Shown here: positions 55,955 through 63,438 of the stretch, in pieces
Numbering within the stretch: position 1 is the stretch's first letter
How the letters are laid out: every line of letters starts with the position of its first letter
Source of the DNA: Agrobacterium sp. RAC06
GTDB lineage: Bacteria; Pseudomonadota; Alphaproteobacteria; Rhizobiales; Rhizobiaceae
Direction of reading: 5' to 3'
Assembly: GCF_001713475.1 (NCBI RefSeq)
Contig: NZ_CP016499.1
Coordinates: 3,360,001 to 3,424,000, forward strand
Length of the DNA: 64,000 bases
Notes under the pieces: model-generated
The model's input: the letters and a program-made list of their open reading frames with translations, nothing else
Told to the model about the DNA's origin: nothing
Databases searched by the model: none
Program-made: the position numbers and the translations under genes

Positions 55955-56451
55955 ATGATCGATATCGTCAGTCTCAGCAAGGCCTATGGCGCCAGCACGG
56001 TTCTGGACGATTTCAGTCTGACGTTTCTTGCCAAAGGCGGGTTGACGGCGATCATCGGACCGAACGGCGCGGGCAAGTCCACCCTCCTGTCGATCATCGC
56101 GCGCCTGATGCTGCCTGACGCTGGCACGGTTCATCTCGAAGGGCTCGATGTCTTCCAGGCCAAGGGCGAACTGCTCGCCCAGCGCCTTTCGATCCTCAGG
56201 CAGGATAACCACATGGCCGCGCGGTTCACCGTCAGCGATCTCGTCGCCTTTTCCTATTCGAATGGACGGCTGACGGTTGCCGACAAGGCAAAGATCGACG
56301 AGGCGCTGGCTCATCTGAAGCTGCGACCGCTTGCCGATCGATATCTCGATGAACTCTCGGGCGGCCAGCGGCAGCGCGCCTTCTTCGCGATGATCCTGTG
56401 TCAGGACAGCGATTACACGCTGTTCGATGAGCCGCTCAACAATCTCGATAT
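55955..56451 (+). pseudogene. Iron-siderophore ABC ATPase (FecE/FepC type), 3'-truncated
   Basis: The first about 165 residues are a normal Fe-siderophore ATPase: Walker A GPNGAGKST, LSILRQDNHMAARFTVSDLV, signature LSGGQRQRAFFAM and Walker B YTLFDEPLNNLD. Family similarity stops just after LNNLD, so the switch histidine and the last 80 residues are lost. The open frame runs on for 43 unrelated codons to 56581. The chimera keeps the nucleotide site but lacks the H-loop, so transport is unlikely. No binding protein or permease gene remains upstream. Confidence 0.8.
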
Positions 56452-56834
56452 CCCGCATGGCGTCGCCATGATGGCGCCCTCAAGCAGCCGAGCCGGGATC
56501 TCAGCAAAACCCGCAAACGTTGGTGCGCACAAGCTCTTCCCGTTGATCCTCGAGCCTGTCGAGCTCCTCGTCAAACCCTGAAATCCGACAGCGGCCTTCC
56601 GCCACCCTCTGTCATATCCGGGCGATGATGCTCCCTTGCAATCTCGCCGGTTCTGCTCAGGCTTTGTGATCGAGGAGACCTTGAGCGAGACGAACTGATC
56701 CACCGAGCCCAACAGCCATACATACTGAGCCAGACAGAAGATGGGGTCAGGCAGAAGCATCTCGACACGGCTGCGAATGGTGTGGAGCATGGCTTCATGC
56801 CGATACCGATGAGCAGTGACCTCATACAAGTCGA
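56452..56834. other. Unassigned debris between truncated ATPase and IS3 remnant
   Basis: A minus-strand frame of 142 codons (56413-56841) contains MLLPDPIFCLAQYVWLLGSV, but I know no matching family, and it overlaps the ATPase. It is probably insertion-derived sequence. Confidence 0.4.
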
Positions 56835-57532
56835 GATCCAAATACGGGGTCCTCGATGCGTCGATGATCAGCCAGATGAAGGCTCTGGAGGATGAGAGCC
56901 ATCGGATGAGGAAGATGTATGCCGAGATGAGCGTGCAGGCCGAGCTTCTGAAGGAGGCTCTTGGGAAATAACGCGGCTATCTCGACGACGGGATATGGCT
57001 GGGCAAGCAGTGGTGGGGGTGCACGGGGTGATCATTGCGGTTGCCTGCCGTTGCTTCCATGTCAGTAAGACCTGCTCTCTTTATAGCGCCAAGTTGAACG
57101 ACGATAACGAGGAGGTCGCCGATCTCCCCGTCGGGCTGACGCGGGCGAAGAAGACCTGGGGCTTCGGCCTGTGCTTCCTTTACCTGCGCAATATGTCCGG
57201 GGACATCGCTGGAACCACAGGCGTGTGTGCGGCATCTGTCGCAAGTCTTAGGATCAAGCCACGCTGGCGTTTGAAGCAGGACAAGCCCGATGCGTTGACT
57301 GTGCCGGAAGCAACGAGCCTGGTCTGGTCCAGGGGTTTCATGGCGGATCGTTTGGAGGATGGTCGGCAATTCCGACTGCTGAAAGTCTTGGATAACATCA
57401 ACCGCTGGGGCCTGGCATCCAAGTGAACTTTTCGACGCCTGCAGAACGCGTCATCCGCACACTGAGCCAGATCGTCGAATGGCGCGGTAAACCGACGATG
57501 ATCCTCCGTGACAATGGCTTCGCGCGCCGTCG
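56835..57532 (+). pseudogene. IS3-family element remnant (OrfA end and broken OrfB)
   Basis: KYGVLDASMISQMKALEDES and MRKMYAEMSVQAELLKEALG, ending at about 56970, is the C-terminus of an IS3 OrfA, with its leucine-zipper spacing. OrfB follows in changing frames: SKTCSLYSAKLNDDNEEVAD, KTWGFGLCFLYLRN, LRIKPRWRLKQDKPDALTVP, FMADRLEDGRQFRLLKVLDN and ERVIRTLSQIVEWRGKPTMI. Several DDE-domain residues are replaced or lost; for example W-S-x-D-F appears as LVWSRGF. It ends near 57532, before the DNG motif. The element probably cut the siderophore ATPase upstream. Confidence 0.75.
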
Positions 57533-57698
57533 GCAATGTTAGAGCAAGATTGCCGATAACGAACGGCCGAATATGGGCATTGGCAGTTCGGAAAAAGTCG
57601 GCAATGAACTTGATGTCGGCGAATGCTGCGATCGCTAAGGGTAGCCAAGCTTATTCAGGTCAAAGACAGCCTAGCTCGTCATGGAATTTCATCGGCAA

Positions 57699-57723
57699 AA
57701 ACATGATAATTGAACTCATGTTT
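57699..57723. promoter_or_regulatory. Iron-responsive operator (IRO/RirA-type palindrome)
   Basis: AAACATGA (57699-57706) and TCATGTTT (57716-57723) are a perfect inverted repeat with a 9-base spacer, containing exactly TGA-N9-TCA, the IRO core recognised by RirA in rhizobia. It lies 66 bases before the TonB receptor start and just upstream of a TTGACT -35-like box. Confidence 0.75.
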
Positions 57724-57727
57724 AAAC

Positions 57728-57756
57728 TTGACTCCTTTGGTATCCTTTAATACGAC
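57728..57756 (+). promoter_or_regulatory. Probable sigma-70 promoter of the TonB operon
   Basis: TTGACT (57728-57733), 17 bases and TACGAC (57751-57756) form a reasonable sigma-70 pair. It directly follows the iron palindrome and precedes the ATG by 33 bases. Confidence 0.45.
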
Positions 57757-57789
57757 CCGCTCTGTCCACTAGTTCTGAGGGGTTGAACC

Positions 57790-60078
57790 ATGAAATTCCA
57801 GGCCATAGCGACGCCTTGCGCGTCCACGCGTCACCGTGTCCAATTTCTTGCTGCAAGTGTTGCAGTGATAGGCATTTGCTTGCCGAGTGCCGGTCAGGCC
57901 GACGATACGATCCTTGATCAGATCGTGGTTTCGTCGCGATCGGACAAGAAGCTCCACGATGTGCCGCAAAACATCACGGTCGTGACCCAGGAGCAGTTGG
58001 ACGATTACAACATCCGAGACATTCAGGATCTCGTGCGGCGGGAGCCCGGCGTGTCGGTCTCAAGACAGACTTCAAGCGTCAATCCCTGGGGGCAGCTGAC
58101 TGGCTTTACGATCCGCGGCATGGGCGGTAACCGCGTGCTGACCATGGTCGACGGTTCGCGCGTTCAGGAACTCATCACCGACGGCAGCCGCGACTTCTTC
58201 GACATGAGCAATTTCAAGGCGGTCGAGATCGTCCGTGGGCCCAATTCGGTCCTGTGGGGTGCCGACGCACTCGGTGGGTCCGTCATGTTCCGCACGCTCG
58301 ATCCCTCGGATCTCCTTGCAGATAGCGACAAGCCCTGGGCGTTGGAGATGAAGACCAGCTATGACAGCTTCGACGATAGCTGGAACAAGCAGGTGACCGG
58401 CGCCTATGATTTCGGAGACCTGCATATCCTCGGCAGCTACGGCCAGACATCTTCGCATGAGGCCGAGTTCAGCAATGCGCGTGCCGACGGCGGGATCTGG
58501 GGCTGCAGCCGGCTCTATCTGGGATGCAACGAGCTCTTCCCCGCGGACACAGATGTCGAAAACGCACTTCTCAAGATGGTCTGGACGCCGGATGCCCAGA
58601 ACACGGTGAAGCTGACGGGAGAGCTCTTCGGTCGCGCGACGGAAGTTCTCCAGCTCTACGACATGAGCGCATCGGGCACGGGTATCCCGTCCACCAGCGC
58701 CTATAACAACGACCCCTATGTCCGCGATCTCGACATGAGCCGCAAGCGGTTCGCGCTTGAACACGAGTGGCTGGCGGATCTGCCCTGGCTCGACAGCCTG
58801 AATTGGCGTCTGTCTTATTCGCCCCAGGAGCGCGTAACCGACAGCGATCAGCGCCGCGTCTATTCGAACCGCGTCGAACTGCGCAATCAGTATCGTGACT
58901 ACAGCGAAACTTTCCTGGAAGGCGACATTCAGCTGAAGTCGAGCTTTGATCTCGGGCCAACCCGTCACAGCCTTACCTACGGCTTCGATGGCGATCATAC
59001 CAAGGGTGATTACGCGGGTATCAACACCACCTACAACTCCCTGACCGGGACGACGACGGTGGCCACCAACCAGGGTTTCAGCTTCCCCCGCGTCGAGACA
59101 CAGCGCGCCGACTTCTACATCCAGGACGAAATCGCGCTTCTTGATGATCGCCTGACCCTGACGCCGGGCCTCAGGCTCGCCACCTATTCGATCGACCCGA
59201 CAGGGGATGCGACATATCCCGGGCTGCCCGGCTATGCGCCCGCGAAAAAGGAAAGCACCGAGCTGTTGAAGGCCTTCAGCGCAACCTACAAGCTCGACGA
59301 GACCTACTCTGTCTATGCGTCCTACGGAGAGGGCTTCAAGATGCCGACCTCGGCGCAGCTCTTCCAGTCGAGCACGGACATCTTCAGCGGCTCCTCCATC
59401 ATCCCCAATCCCGACCTGCGACCAGAATCGGTTCAAAGCTACGAGATTGGACTTCGTGGTGAGTATGAGCGTGGCTTCTTCAGCGTGAACGGCTTCTATG
59501 CCGACTACAAGGACTTCATCCGCAGCCTCCAGGCAACAACGATCCTCAATGGCAGCGGCACGCCCGTCACGGCCTATACCTCGAACAATGTCGAGGATGT
59601 CAGGCTCTGGGGCATCGAGTTCGGTGGCGAATACGAAGTTCTGGATTACACCACGCTCTCGGCCAATCTGAGCTGGAGCAAGGGGCGCCAGAAAGTCAGC
59701 GCATCCTCTGCCGAAACGGCCTTCGATGGTGCGGCACCGTTTACCGCGGTTCTCGGGGTGAAGCACGAACTGCCGGATTACCACCTGCAATTCGAGCTGT
59801 TCGGCACCTTCGCCGCCGGCCGAACCGAGGCAAGCAACACTGCCTATTACCTGCCCTCCGGCTACGCGGTCTTCGATGCCTATGCCAAGTGGACCCCGCG
59901 AGAAAACCTGGAAGTGACCTTCGGGATCGAGAACATCTTCGACCGCCGATACTTCCCGAACACGCTGACCGGCTACAACACCGTCGCCGGTTCGGCGGCG
60001 GTTGCCAATGTCAATCCGCTGGAACTGCAAACGGGGGCCGGTCGCACATTCAAGGTCGGCGCGACGGTCAAATTTTGA
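57790..60078 (+). CDS. TonB-dependent outer-membrane receptor, heme-receptor type
   Basis: This 762-residue receptor has a signal sequence ending near SAGQADD, the TonB-box region DQIVVSSRSDKK, a plug domain (VPQNITVVTQEQLDDYNIRD, TGFTIRGMGGNRVLTMVDGS, VEIVRGPNSVLWGADALGGS) and a 22-strand barrel ending in FKVGATVKF with terminal phenylalanine. The plug and length fit the heme/hemoglobin receptor class; there is an internal DLRPESVQSYEIGLRGEY box. Heme as ligand is supported by the ChuX/HutX-like and ChaN-like genes downstream. A TGA-N9-TCA operator points to iron repression. It is the first gene of a four-gene operon. Confidence 0.92.
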   Translation: MKFQAIATPCASTRHRVQFLAASVAVIGICLPSAGQADDTILDQIVVSSRSDKKLHDVPQNITVVTQEQLDDYNIRDIQDLVRREPGVSVSRQTSSVNPWGQLTGFTIRGMGGNRVLTMVDGSRVQELITDGSRDFFDMSNFKAVEIVRGPNSVLWGADALGGSVMFRTLDPSDLLADSDKPWALEMKTSYDSFDDSWNKQVTGAYDFGDLHILGSYGQTSSHEAEFSNARADGGIWGCSRLYLGCNELFPADTDVENALLKMVWTPDAQNTVKLTGELFGRATEVLQLYDMSASGTGIPSTSAYNNDPYVRDLDMSRKRFALEHEWLADLPWLDSLNWRLSYSPQERVTDSDQRRVYSNRVELRNQYRDYSETFLEGDIQLKSSFDLGPTRHSLTYGFDGDHTKGDYAGINTTYNSLTGTTTVATNQGFSFPRVETQRADFYIQDEIALLDDRLTLTPGLRLATYSIDPTGDATYPGLPGYAPAKKESTELLKAFSATYKLDETYSVYASYGEGFKMPTSAQLFQSSTDIFSGSSIIPNPDLRPESVQSYEIGLRGEYERGFFSVNGFYADYKDFIRSLQATTILNGSGTPVTAYTSNNVEDVRLWGIEFGGEYEVLDYTTLSANLSWSKGRQKVSASSAETAFDGAAPFTAVLGVKHELPDYHLQFELFGTFAAGRTEASNTAYYLPSGYAVFDAYAKWTPRENLEVTFGIENIFDRRYFPNTLTGYNTVAGSAAVANVNPLELQTGAGRTFKVGATVKF

Positions 60079-60131
60079 GCCATACCGGTGCCGGGCAAGC
60101 AACCGGCACCACCCTTTTCAGAGGGAGCATC

Positions 60132-61838
60132 ATGTCGACCCTGTTTCAACAGTTCAAACGTCTGATCGTCATTTGCATCTCGGCTCCGGGAGGCAAGTTC
60201 AGCGTTGCGCTTTATGCCCTGGCCATCGCTCTCAACCTCGGCAGCGTCTACGCTGCAGTTCGTCTGGTCGAGTGGACGGGTCAATTCTATTCTGCCATCG
60301 AAAAGGTTGACGGACCCGAAGTGCTCCGGCAGATCGGTATCTTTGCCCTGATCATCGCTTTGAATTCCGTGCGCGGCTTGTCTTACGAATACCTGCGCAA
60401 GGTGCTGGAGATCCGCTGGCGGAAGGCACTGACAGACCATGCGATCGCATTGTGGACCCGCAACAAGGCCTTCTGGCACATGGCGGCTGACCCGGTCGAT
60501 CGCATCGACAATCCGGACCAGCGAATTGCGGAAGACTGCCGGCTGTTTGCGCGCGGCCTGCTCGGCGAGACACTGGATTTGATCGGCGAGATCGTCGGCC
60601 TGTTTTCCTATCTGACAGTGCTCTGGGGACTGTCCAACTTTGCCCTGTCGCTGGCTCCCCTCGGGCTGGACCTCGAGATCCCGCGCTACATGGTCTGGGC
60701 GGCCTTCCTCTATGTGGCGATCAGCAGCCTGATTACCCATCAGCTGGGTAAGCCGCTTAAAGGTCTGCTTGCCGAGCAACAGCACAAGGAGGCGAGCTTT
60801 CGGTTCGGCCTCGCTCGCTGGCGGACGGCTTTCGACGAGGTCGCACTTTCAAATGGCGAGGCGGCCGAACGGCGAAGCTTTTCTGCCCGCTTCGACGCGC
60901 TGGCTGCCAACTGGCGGCGACTGATCCGCGCCGAGCTCGTTCTGGGCAGCTTTACCTTCCCGTTTCGGCATTCCGTGCTGCGGATCCCGCTCTTCGTGGC
61001 GCTGCCGGGCTATCTGGCCGGTCATGTTGCCTTCGGTGGTTTGATGCAGCTCAGCATGGCCTTCTCCCAGGTAGTCACCACACTGTCCTGGTTCATCTTC
61101 TCCTATCGGGATCTCGCCGAACTTGTGGCCACGGCATCGCGCCTCGACGGCTTCCTTCAAGCCGCCGAGCGCCACGGATCGCATCCTTCGCCACTATCCA
61201 GGATAAGCCAATCACAGTCTCTCACGCTGCAGGACATTAGGGTTTGCTCGGCCCAAGGTGAGCTTCTCCTGAAACTGCCTGATATCTCGCTTGATCCCGG
61301 CTCTACCTTGCTTCTTCGTGGGCGATCTGGAATCGGCAAGACGACGATGGTCAAGCTTCTCGCCGGTTTCTGGCAGCATGGCTCCGGTTCAATCACGCTT
61401 CCTTCGGACAAGGTGCTTTTCCTGCCGCAGAAGGCCTATATGCCGCTCGGCTCACTGGCCGATGCCGCCGCCTATCCCCGCGCAATCGGTGATTTTGGAC
61501 AGGAGACTGTGGCATCGGCCCTGCACGCCGTTGGTCTCGAACGAATGCCGGAACGTGCCGCGATCGAAGCCGAACGCGACCTTGCCTCACTGTCGGGCGG
61601 TGAAATGCAGAGGCTCGCACTGGCCCGTATTCTGTTGCAACGACCGGATATTGCAATCCTCGACGAGGCAACCAGCGCGCTCGACCAGGCGGCCGAAACC
61701 GAGCTTCTGGCACGGATCCGCGAGCATTTGCCCGACATGATCCTGATCCTGATCTCGCATCGCGTCCCCCAGACGCCATCAGACATGCAGATCCACGATA
61801 TCGACAACCATCCGAAAGTGCTGGCTGTCGCCAGCTGA
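60132..61838 (+). CDS. YddA/Rv1819c-type ABC transporter (ABC_membrane_2 permease fused to ATPase)
   Basis: This is a 568-residue half-transporter. Residues about 15-340 form the SbmA/BacA-related membrane domain, recognised by WTGQFYSAIEKVD, LRKVLEIRWRKALTDHAIAL and NPDQRIAEDCRLFARGLL. Residues about 370-560 form an ATPase with Walker A GRSGIGKTT, signature LSGGEMQRLALARILLQRPD, Walker B IAILDEATSALD and switch ISHRV. The relatives YddA and Rv1819c act without a binding protein, and Rv1819c imports cobalamin. In this iron operon it may be the inner-membrane importer of heme or a metal chelate; export is the alternative. ATG 60132 follows AGAGGGAGC. Confidence 0.88.
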   Translation: MSTLFQQFKRLIVICISAPGGKFSVALYALAIALNLGSVYAAVRLVEWTGQFYSAIEKVDGPEVLRQIGIFALIIALNSVRGLSYEYLRKVLEIRWRKALTDHAIALWTRNKAFWHMAADPVDRIDNPDQRIAEDCRLFARGLLGETLDLIGEIVGLFSYLTVLWGLSNFALSLAPLGLDLEIPRYMVWAAFLYVAISSLITHQLGKPLKGLLAEQQHKEASFRFGLARWRTAFDEVALSNGEAAERRSFSARFDALAANWRRLIRAELVLGSFTFPFRHSVLRIPLFVALPGYLAGHVAFGGLMQLSMAFSQVVTTLSWFIFSYRDLAELVATASRLDGFLQAAERHGSHPSPLSRISQSQSLTLQDIRVCSAQGELLLKLPDISLDPGSTLLLRGRSGIGKTTMVKLLAGFWQHGSGSITLPSDKVLFLPQKAYMPLGSLADAAAYPRAIGDFGQETVASALHAVGLERMPERAAIEAERDLASLSGGEMQRLALARILLQRPDIAILDEATSALDQAAETELLARIREHLPDMILILISHRVPQTPSDMQIHDIDNHPKVLAVAS

Positions 61839-61858
61839 CGCCATCCTCCATCGAACCC

Positions 61859-62596
61859 ATGACGGAAACAGACATGACCATCAACGAACCCGTAACCCGG
61901 CACCACCTGCAGGCAAAGGCAGAAGATATCATCCGGCGGCTCCCCGAAATGGGCAAGTTGATGATTATCGGAAAGGGCAAGGGCGCCACCCACGAACGCA
62001 TCGGCAAGGTCGAGATGGTAGGGGAAGTCTCTGGCCGCTTCGTCTGCGGTGGCGCCCATCACAAGTCCCGTATCGATCCGACCCTGGTCTGCGAGATCGT
62101 CTTCGATATCTCCAGCATCATGCAGAACCAGGTTTATCCGCGTCTGGAATTCAACAAGGCTGACGGCGGCACGCTTTTCGCAGTGGTCGGCTTCGAAGGG
62201 CTCGAACCTTTCGCAAATGTCTTGTCGGATCTGCAGAGGACTGTCGATCCGAAGAAGCGGGACCTCACCCGGCCTGACAGACCGGATCTGGACCCTGCCG
62301 ATCCGGGACGTCTGCCACTGGATCTAGCCTTGGCCGAGGGCTCTGCGATCACCATTCGTTATGACGAGCCCGGCTTCAGCCAGAGCTGGACGGGACCGGT
62401 TACCAAAGTCAGCCCCGGCATGGGCTTCATCAACATCATGACCGAGGATTTTCATCTGCATCTGCTCGGCGGCACTGTCGCACGCTGGGAAGAGACAGAG
62501 GTGGCCGAGGGACGGATGCAGCTTGCCGCCATAAACCACGAAGGGCAGCTGGTCGGCTTGACCCTACTGGTTCCAGCATTTGAAGATGCAGTTTGA
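61859..62596 (+). CDS. ChuX/HutX-like heme-utilisation protein
   Basis: This 245-residue cytoplasmic protein resembles the ChuX/HutX fold. LRxLPEMGK-like LPEMGKLMIIGKGKGATHER, VEMVGEVSGRFVCGGAHHKS and LVCEIVFDISSIMQNQVYPR are followed by NKADGGTLFAVVGFEGLEPF, the region that shapes the heme pocket in the family. The C-terminal half adds a second domain (ITIRYDEPGFSQSWTGPVTK, FHLHLLGG) that is less familiar. HutX-type proteins store heme or pass it to degrading enzymes. The next gene starts within 15 nt of its stop. The ATG could also be at 61874. Confidence 0.65.
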   Translation: MTETDMTINEPVTRHHLQAKAEDIIRRLPEMGKLMIIGKGKGATHERIGKVEMVGEVSGRFVCGGAHHKSRIDPTLVCEIVFDISSIMQNQVYPRLEFNKADGGTLFAVVGFEGLEPFANVLSDLQRTVDPKKRDLTRPDRPDLDPADPGRLPLDLALAEGSAITIRYDEPGFSQSWTGPVTKVSPGMGFINIMTEDFHLHLLGGTVARWEETEVAEGRMQLAAINHEGQLVGLTLLVPAFEDAV

Positions 62597-62610
62597 CGGT
62601 GGAGAAGGGC

Positions 62611-63438
62611 ATGGTGGAACATCAGCCGGGCAGTTGGCGGGACGGTCATACGTGCGAGATCCTGCAGCATCAGGCGCTAATGCAGACGCTTGCTGAAAAG
62701 CAGGCGGTCTTGCTGGGCGAGACCCATGACCGATATGATATACATCGTTGGCAGTTGCATGTCCTTGCCGCGCTGCATGCTTACAAGGCTGATATCGTCG
62801 TCGGTTTCGAGATGTTTCCGAGACGCGTTCAGCCGGCGCTGGACCGCTGGGTTGCTGGTGCGCTCACCGTTGAGCAGTTTCTCGAGGAAGCGGAATGGGC
62901 AACGGTCTGGGGCTTCCAGGCCGAACTTTACCTGCCGATCTTCCACTATTGCCGGCAGTTCCGTCTGCCGATGAAAGCGCTCAATTGCCACCGACAACTG
63001 GTGACGGAGGTTGGCAAGCTCGGGTGGGAGGCGATCCCGGAGGCGGAGCGGGACGGGTTGACGCCGGCACGGCCGGCGACGGCAGCCTATCGTCGCTTTC
63101 TCTTCGAGTATACGGGAGGTTCAAGGCCGGAACGTGCGGCTCAACATGCGGACGATCCTCAGTTCGATCGATTTGTTCGGGCCCAGCAGACCTGGGACCG
63201 TGCGTTTGCCTGCAATATCGCAACTGCGCTTGAGGCAGACCCGTCGGCTCTGGTCGTCGGCATCATCGGACGTGGGCATCTGGAATATGGTCACGGCACT
63301 CCAGCGCAGCTTGCCGATCTGGGGATTGAGCACGTTGCGGTTCTGTTGCCCGAGGACAGCTTGGAATTCGAGATTGAAAGAAAGCCCGGCATGGCCGATG
63401 CCCTCTTCATGCTTGCTCGACTCGACGCACCTGAATGA
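62611..63438 (+). CDS. ChaN-family heme-binding-like protein
   Basis: This 275-residue protein has the ChaN (DUF399) pattern VLLGETHDRYDIHRWQLHVL, VVGFEMFPRRVQPALDRWVA, EEAEWATVWGFQAELYLPIF and VVGIIGRGHLEYGHGTPAQL. Campylobacter ChaN is a lipoprotein that dimerises around two hemes. Here no signal peptide or lipobox is visible, so it would be cytoplasmic, which is unusual. ATG 62611 is preceded by GGAGAAGG; a TTG at 62593 overlapping the previous stop is also possible. It is the last gene of the operon and may cooperate with the ChuX/HutX-like protein. Confidence 0.85.
   Translation: MVEHQPGSWRDGHTCEILQHQALMQTLAEKQAVLLGETHDRYDIHRWQLHVLAALHAYKADIVVGFEMFPRRVQPALDRWVAGALTVEQFLEEAEWATVWGFQAELYLPIFHYCRQFRLPMKALNCHRQLVTEVGKLGWEAIPEAERDGLTPARPATAAYRRFLFEYTGGSRPERAAQHADDPQFDRFVRAQQTWDRAFACNIATALEADPSALVVGIIGRGHLEYGHGTPAQLADLGIEHVAVLLPEDSLEFEIERKPGMADALFMLARLDAPE

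Follow-up and report, generated by a model that had tools for sequence, protein, structure and literature searches.

Heme uptake in Gram-negative bacteria is usually pictured as involving a receptor, a binding protein, a permease and an ATPase. An operon in Agrobacterium sp. RAC06 (genome of 4.96 Mb in two contigs) raises the question of what would be imported, and by which route, where a heme-type receptor is encoded beside a one-chain ABC transporter and two heme-family proteins. We analysed a 64,000-nucleotide stretch of this genome (the window), in which operator and genes together span 57700-63438. It is likely that this module imports an iron chelate, and on balance probable that it is an iron-repressed system for heme-type or other iron-chelate import, operating without a binding protein and in parallel to HmuTUV, with unpacking of the ligand in the cytoplasm. 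An earlier note on this DNA had described an operator followed by four tightly spaced genes on one strand; this layout is present, and all four genes are intact.

57700..57722, no strand assigned: iron-type operator AACATGA-N9-TCATGTT, a 23-base palindrome of the rhizobial TGA-N9-TCA type
57725..57747, no strand assigned: second, degenerate operator 25 bases downstream of the first, with TAT where the second TCA is expected
57790..60078, + strand: TonB-dependent outer-membrane receptor of the heme/hemoglobin family, with a signal-peptide-like start
60132..61838, + strand: one-chain ABC transporter of the Rv1819c/YddA/SbmA type, membrane and ATPase domains
61859..62596, + strand: compact two-repeat HemS/ChuS/PhuS-fold protein (gene 3), 240-245 aa, likelier start 61874
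62593..63438, + strand: ChaN-family (TIKI/Ere fold) protein (gene 4), 275-281 aa, likelier start 62611, without export signal

The receptor and ABC genes are separated by 53 bases, and the ABC gene and gene 3 by 20-35 bases depending on the start chosen; likewise, the ChaN-like gene either overlaps gene 3 or begins 14 bases past its end. The starts at 61874 and 62611 are favoured because relatives begin there. The upstream flank holds a truncated iron-type ABC ATPase (window 55955-56581), its FecE match extending only to position 179 of 255, followed at about 57300-57540 by what appears by eye to be a transposase remnant. Directly 3' of the module, on the opposite strand, lies a type I secretion pair (HlyD and ABC; L007:5901-13979 on G000:C1, from about window 63900) accompanied by two RTX proteins. 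One of these is an animal-type heme peroxidase (PF03098), a heme enzyme that is probably secreted and is encoded next to the heme-type uptake operon.

The receptor scores above the curated cut-offs of two heme-receptor families (TIGR01786, 358.5 bits against 323.75; TIGR01785, 336.6 against 316.85), and its closest solved structure is PhuR (8the, E 2e-72). HemR is described as ligating heme through H128 in the plug and H461 in the FRAP-NPNL loop (PMC6449446). Across 77 module receptors, histidine was found in none of the plug stretches and in a single FRAP-NPNL loop stretch; the loop tyrosine position carries Phe in 48, the window included, and Tyr in 29, and C239, C246 and H393 are invariant. 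Of the control receptors, the second heme-type receptor of RAC06 and the loops of the top-scoring L139 and L140 also lack the histidine and keep the tyrosine; the plug histidine is present in the control heme receptor L141. The missing histidines were considered as an argument against heme, which was dropped given that other heme-type receptors are also without them. Because of this, our estimate for a siderophore ligand fell slightly and that for heme or a heme derivative rose slightly.

The ABC protein combines, in one chain, a membrane domain of the ABC_membrane_2/SbmA_BacA type with an ATPase (PF06472, PF05992 and PF00005 at 147.9, 85.5 and 68.3 bits, all above cut-off), and its Walker A/B motifs and LSGGE signature read as intact. 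It shares this single-chain arrangement of membrane and ATPase domains, from the same three families, with Rv1819c and the YddA/SbmA/BacA group. It differs from them in its setting, where an iron operator heads an operon that also encodes a TonB receptor and proteins of heme families, and in forming a subfamily of its own at at least 43% identity within the order sample described below. YbtPQ and IrtAB have two chains with a membrane domain of a different family and, to our knowledge, no HemS or ChaN partner. Their likeness to the module protein would lie in exporter-fold import of iron chelates, a mode of import described as established for iron chelates and siderophores (PMC10967856, PMC10246721). 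The closest solved structure is Rv1819c (6tqe, E 9.6e-77, residues 66-545 aligned), which PMC3603451 describes as implicated in taking up both cobalamin and antimicrobial peptides, no binding protein being known for it. Import by the module transporter appears likelier than export.

Gene 3, previously called ChuX/HutX-like, was found to encode a protein of two repeats and not a single-repeat protein, and the ChuX/HutX identity was rejected. Profile comparison places it in the tandem-repeat HemS/ChuS fold, nearest to HemS. The axial heme ligand of HemS is given as H196 (PMC11773379); the profile alignments of gene 3 span HemS 42-177 and 210-296, and the segment containing H196 (178-209) is absent. 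Six genomes of a single genus have a relative of gene 3 (33-37% identity) and lack the operon ABC. For two of these six, no module genes were found within 8 kb of the relative (L057:7971-8714 and L058:7965-8705); both proteins have lost the HER histidine and kept HLHL, and may reflect another role for this compact HemS fold.

The fourth protein has the family score and fold of ChaN (PF04187, TIKI superfamily), the nearest relative being heme-binding ChaN. Active members of the superfamily are described as having a 2His/2Glu site (PMC6254334). Four residues that would correspond to it on motif and spacing (E43, H45, E73 and H229) are invariant in 42 of 42 sequences. A lipobox-like cysteine is absent in all 65 relatives inspected, and a hydrophobic 12-mer above 1.8 in the first 40 residues was seen in only two of the 65; N-terminal hydrophobicity is 0.58 for the window protein compared to 2.64 for the receptor, the signal control. 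By this hydrophobicity measure, the lack of a signal peptide suggested previously is borne out. The protein thereby differs from C. jejuni ChaN (2g5g), deposited as a putative lipoprotein, and differs further in being linked to genes for an ABC and a HemS-like protein.

The P. aeruginosa heme operon has the order phuR-phuSTUVW, PhuW being a ChaN-type family member. The module resembles it in a receptor nearest to PhuR, in a cytoplasmic protein of the HemS/PhuS fold and in having a ChaN-type partner. It differs in having one Rv1819c-type ABC protein in place of PhuT-PhuU-PhuV, a gene 3 product that is shorter by about 100 residues and lacks the axial-His segment, and a ChaN without lipoprotein signal. 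PhuW is described as important for heme uptake, with CjrA as a PhuW homologue (PMC7412671). For Stenotrophomonas hemP-hemA-smlt0796-smlt0797, deletion of the two unknown genes is reported to have had no significant effect.

To establish how far the four genes travel together, named genomes were surveyed by gene-3 alignment and the best 80 of 121 confirmed loci were compared. The association noted previously proved to be conserved: all four genes occur in 63 of the 80 loci, and a further 12 have receptor, ABC and gene 3 with ChaN missing. The other five hold fewer genes, without receptor or ABC (L077, L126, L132, L135 and L136; some stop at a contig edge). Several gene orders are found, mainly receptor-ABC-3-ChaN (44), receptor-3-ChaN-ABC (12) and receptor-3-ABC (8), with 3-ChaN-receptor-ABC (5), receptor-ABC-3 (4) and divergent arrangements (2) in the minority and five incomplete. 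Carriers among these best 80 loci belong to Rhizobium, Ensifer, Shinella, Devosia, Bosea, Aminobacter and Brucella-group genera, and further to Labrys, Paracoccus, Sulfitobacter, Neoroseomonas and others. In the Sulfitobacter loci L128 and L133, gene 3 is divergent from receptor-ABC-ChaN, and the module is therefore split into two transcription units. The module in L090, whose record bears the title Bacillus subtilis SK6B4, has an identity profile equal to that of Pseudochrobactrum L095 and L096; this record is probably a contamination or mislabelling.

Single-linkage clustering of all reading frames in the same 80 of 121 loci, leaving out those that overlap module genes, gave no fifth family comparable to the four. 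The largest extra cluster, likely a mixed set, covers 30 of the 80 loci, and its longest member looks like a general ABC ATPase; the second largest covers 12. Genes for a binding protein are not among the families that recur beside the module in these clustered loci, in keeping with the earlier proposal of a transporter working without one. A search of open-access literature, which leaves subscription papers outside its scope, found no description of the four-gene module.

Of 297 genomes sampled from the same order, 29 contain a match to gene 3, which is strong in 25. Twenty gene-3 loci from this sample comprise 18 with receptor, ABC and gene 3 and two with gene 3 alone; ChaN is present in 5 of the 18. 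ABC matches number 20 at 43% identity or more (at least 483 bits), after which the next match falls to 39% and 357 bits, and the neighbours of these 20 include a receptor in every case and gene 3 in 19. In the exception, G149, receptor and ABC are accompanied by a ChaN of 30% identity, and the 10.8 kb examined contain no gene 3. The ABC is hence a module-specific subfamily within this order sample. A phylum-wide sample of 398 genomes gave an ABC match at E<=1e-110 only in RAC06 itself, and is hardly a test of spread beyond the alphaproteobacteria.

The bare TGA-N9-TCA motif was rejected as evidence when taken alone, since it is too common (27 observed in the 64-kb window, 16.5 expected). The 23-base palindrome, with W permitted as the fourth letter of both arms, has one exact copy in the genome and seven further places with one mismatch; a reversed control pattern gave none in the genome scan. 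Within the window, three places lie at two or fewer mismatches, compared to 0.10 expected. One of the seven near-copies (G000:C1:314451-314473) falls in the hmuT-hutX interval and precedes the likely hmuT start by 104-126 bases. As named by eye, a second lies next to a FecCD-type permease frame and a third beside a gene for a solute-binding protein, and the remaining four have no obvious iron gene beside them.

Upstream of the receptor, TGA-N9-TCA was found for 50 of 77 genes (the window and 76 loci, kinship between loci ignored); the corresponding rates were 15.5% for random pieces of 510 bases and 8.8% for shuffles. The majority of these sites (58 of 70) are positioned 41-162 bases before the receptor start, which in relatives is an estimate from alignment; the window site is at 86 bases. 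A number of Rhizobiaceae have two intact sites 25 bases apart, the second of which is degenerate in the window. Most Bosea and Bradyrhizobium copies of the module are without the site upstream of the receptor, which would fit another regulator there. The iron operator that the earlier note placed at the head of the operon is thus supported by the single exact palindrome and by recurrence of the same site type. Iron-type regulation appears likely from these sites, with RirA presumably the regulator. An Irr-type box (TTAGAA-N3-TTCTAA) was matched with up to three mismatches in 24 of 77 upstream regions and in 6 of 77 single shuffles; its places are scattered and no claim is made for it.

A replacement of HmuTUV by the module, as suggested previously, was rejected. 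In RAC06 itself, hmuTUV and a HutX gene lie apart from the module, at about 311-315 kb. A search of 49 carrier genomes (RAC06 included; picked for spread from a possible 81) found an HmuV above the curated cut-off in 42. As HmuTUV is usually present alongside, the module is therefore a second system. Of the alternative uptake route envisaged in the earlier note, the conserved module, the iron-type operator and the absence of a recurring binding-protein gene stand; HmuTUV replacement and ChuX/HutX do not. The alphaproteobacterial hmuTUV/hmuS systems likewise feature an iron-type operator, a TonB receptor (which may be unlinked) and a HemS-fold protein, but the module is located at a separate locus of the same genomes. 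A Roseobacter heme paper describes hmuTUV clusters (PMC5225302). In Paracoccus onchidii, the module adjoins hmuTUV, and a heme link is therefore supported. HmuU-/HmuV-like genes occur in the flanks of 8 of the best 80 of 121 loci (L063, L068, L070, L072, L073, L080, L091 and L105), with HmuT too only in L080.

Searches with TIGR01786, PF01126 and PF05171 covered 30 carriers picked for spread. Full-length two-repeat HmuS (two strong PF05171 matches in one frame) was found in 14, weaker tandem matches in three more, and a classical heme oxygenase (PF01126) in seven; in RAC06, these searches found neither a full-length HmuS nor a heme oxygenase. RAC06 does have its second heme-type receptor at 4460 kb (L143:8117-10354, 413 bits), standalone and unlinked to hmuTUV.

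We propose that a bulky ligand, either heme-type or another iron chelate, would pass the outer membrane through the TonB receptor, and that the one-chain ABC, as an exporter-fold importer of the Rv1819c kind, would carry it whole across the inner membrane with no periplasmic binding protein. The compact HemS-fold protein would receive the ligand in the cytoplasm, and the ChaN-like protein, where present, may bind or process it via the 2His/2Glu site, leading to iron release. Heme is a plausible substrate, and we lean somewhat towards heme or a heme derivative as the ligand. The module would run parallel to HmuTUV, probably for a different form of ligand; the usual presence of HmuTUV argues against plain redundancy. 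Counting against this explanation are the missing H196 segment, the change of loop Tyr to Phe in 48 of 77 receptors, and the absence of ChaN from 12 otherwise complete loci among the best 80 of 121 and its presence in only 5 of 18 in the order sample.

An unlikely alternative is that the ligand is a ferric siderophore or other metal chelate, with receptor and ABC acting like FyuA and YbtPQ for yersiniabactin and the ChaN-like hydrolase cleaving the chelator at an ester or amide bond. The lost loop tyrosine, the existence of exporter-fold siderophore importers (PMC10967856, PMC10246721), the retained 2His/2Glu site and the fact that most of the searched carriers already have HmuTUV for heme would fit this, whereas the receptor passes two heme-receptor cut-offs and is nearest PhuR, and genes 3 and 4 encode a HemS fold and a ChaN. 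Furthermore, with no additional recurring family in the best 80 of 121 loci, there is none for chelator synthesis.

More speculatively, and rather improbably, the module could import conjugated heme (heme c peptide fragments, or an esterified or amidated metalloporphyrin) that is barred to HmuTUV. A peptide-tolerant SbmA/Rv1819c-type pump would bring the conjugate in whole, the cytoplasmic ChaN-like enzyme would use its 2His/2Glu site to cut it, and the freed heme would pass to the trimmed HemS-fold protein. If true, this would account for the coexistence with HmuTUV/HmuS, the trimmed HemS and a cytoplasmic TIKI-type hydrolase.

Similarly improbable is that the ABC exports excess heme or a heme breakdown product and that HmuTUV imports for the module receptor. 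The fold is indeed that of exporters, hmuTUV of RAC06 is unlinked to the other heme-type receptor, and HmuV passes in 42 of 49 carriers. Among the other seven, at least two (Labrys genomes) have HmuV just below cut-off beside a heme receptor, because of which our estimate for export rose slightly. Against this, the nearest characterised relative, Rv1819c, is described as importing cobalamin (PMC3603451), and a low-iron operator would fit import better than heme detoxification. Chance proximity of four unrelated genes, for which the rearranged upstream flank could be cited, has negligible probability and was rejected by the neighbourhood survey, with linkage surviving several gene orders and many genera in the best 80 of 121 loci and the ABC subfamily found only in the module setting in the 297-genome sample.

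If the proposed import of a heme-type or other iron chelate in parallel to HmuTUV is correct, a heme-type receptor and a one-chain exporter-fold pump would provide a second inner-membrane route that needs no binding protein, and would suggest a class of compounds that YddA/Rv1819c-group pumps carry in nature. The occurrence of a ChaN-family protein with intact hydrolase site beside a trimmed HemS in the cytoplasm would furthermore make the role of ChaN/PhuW directly testable.
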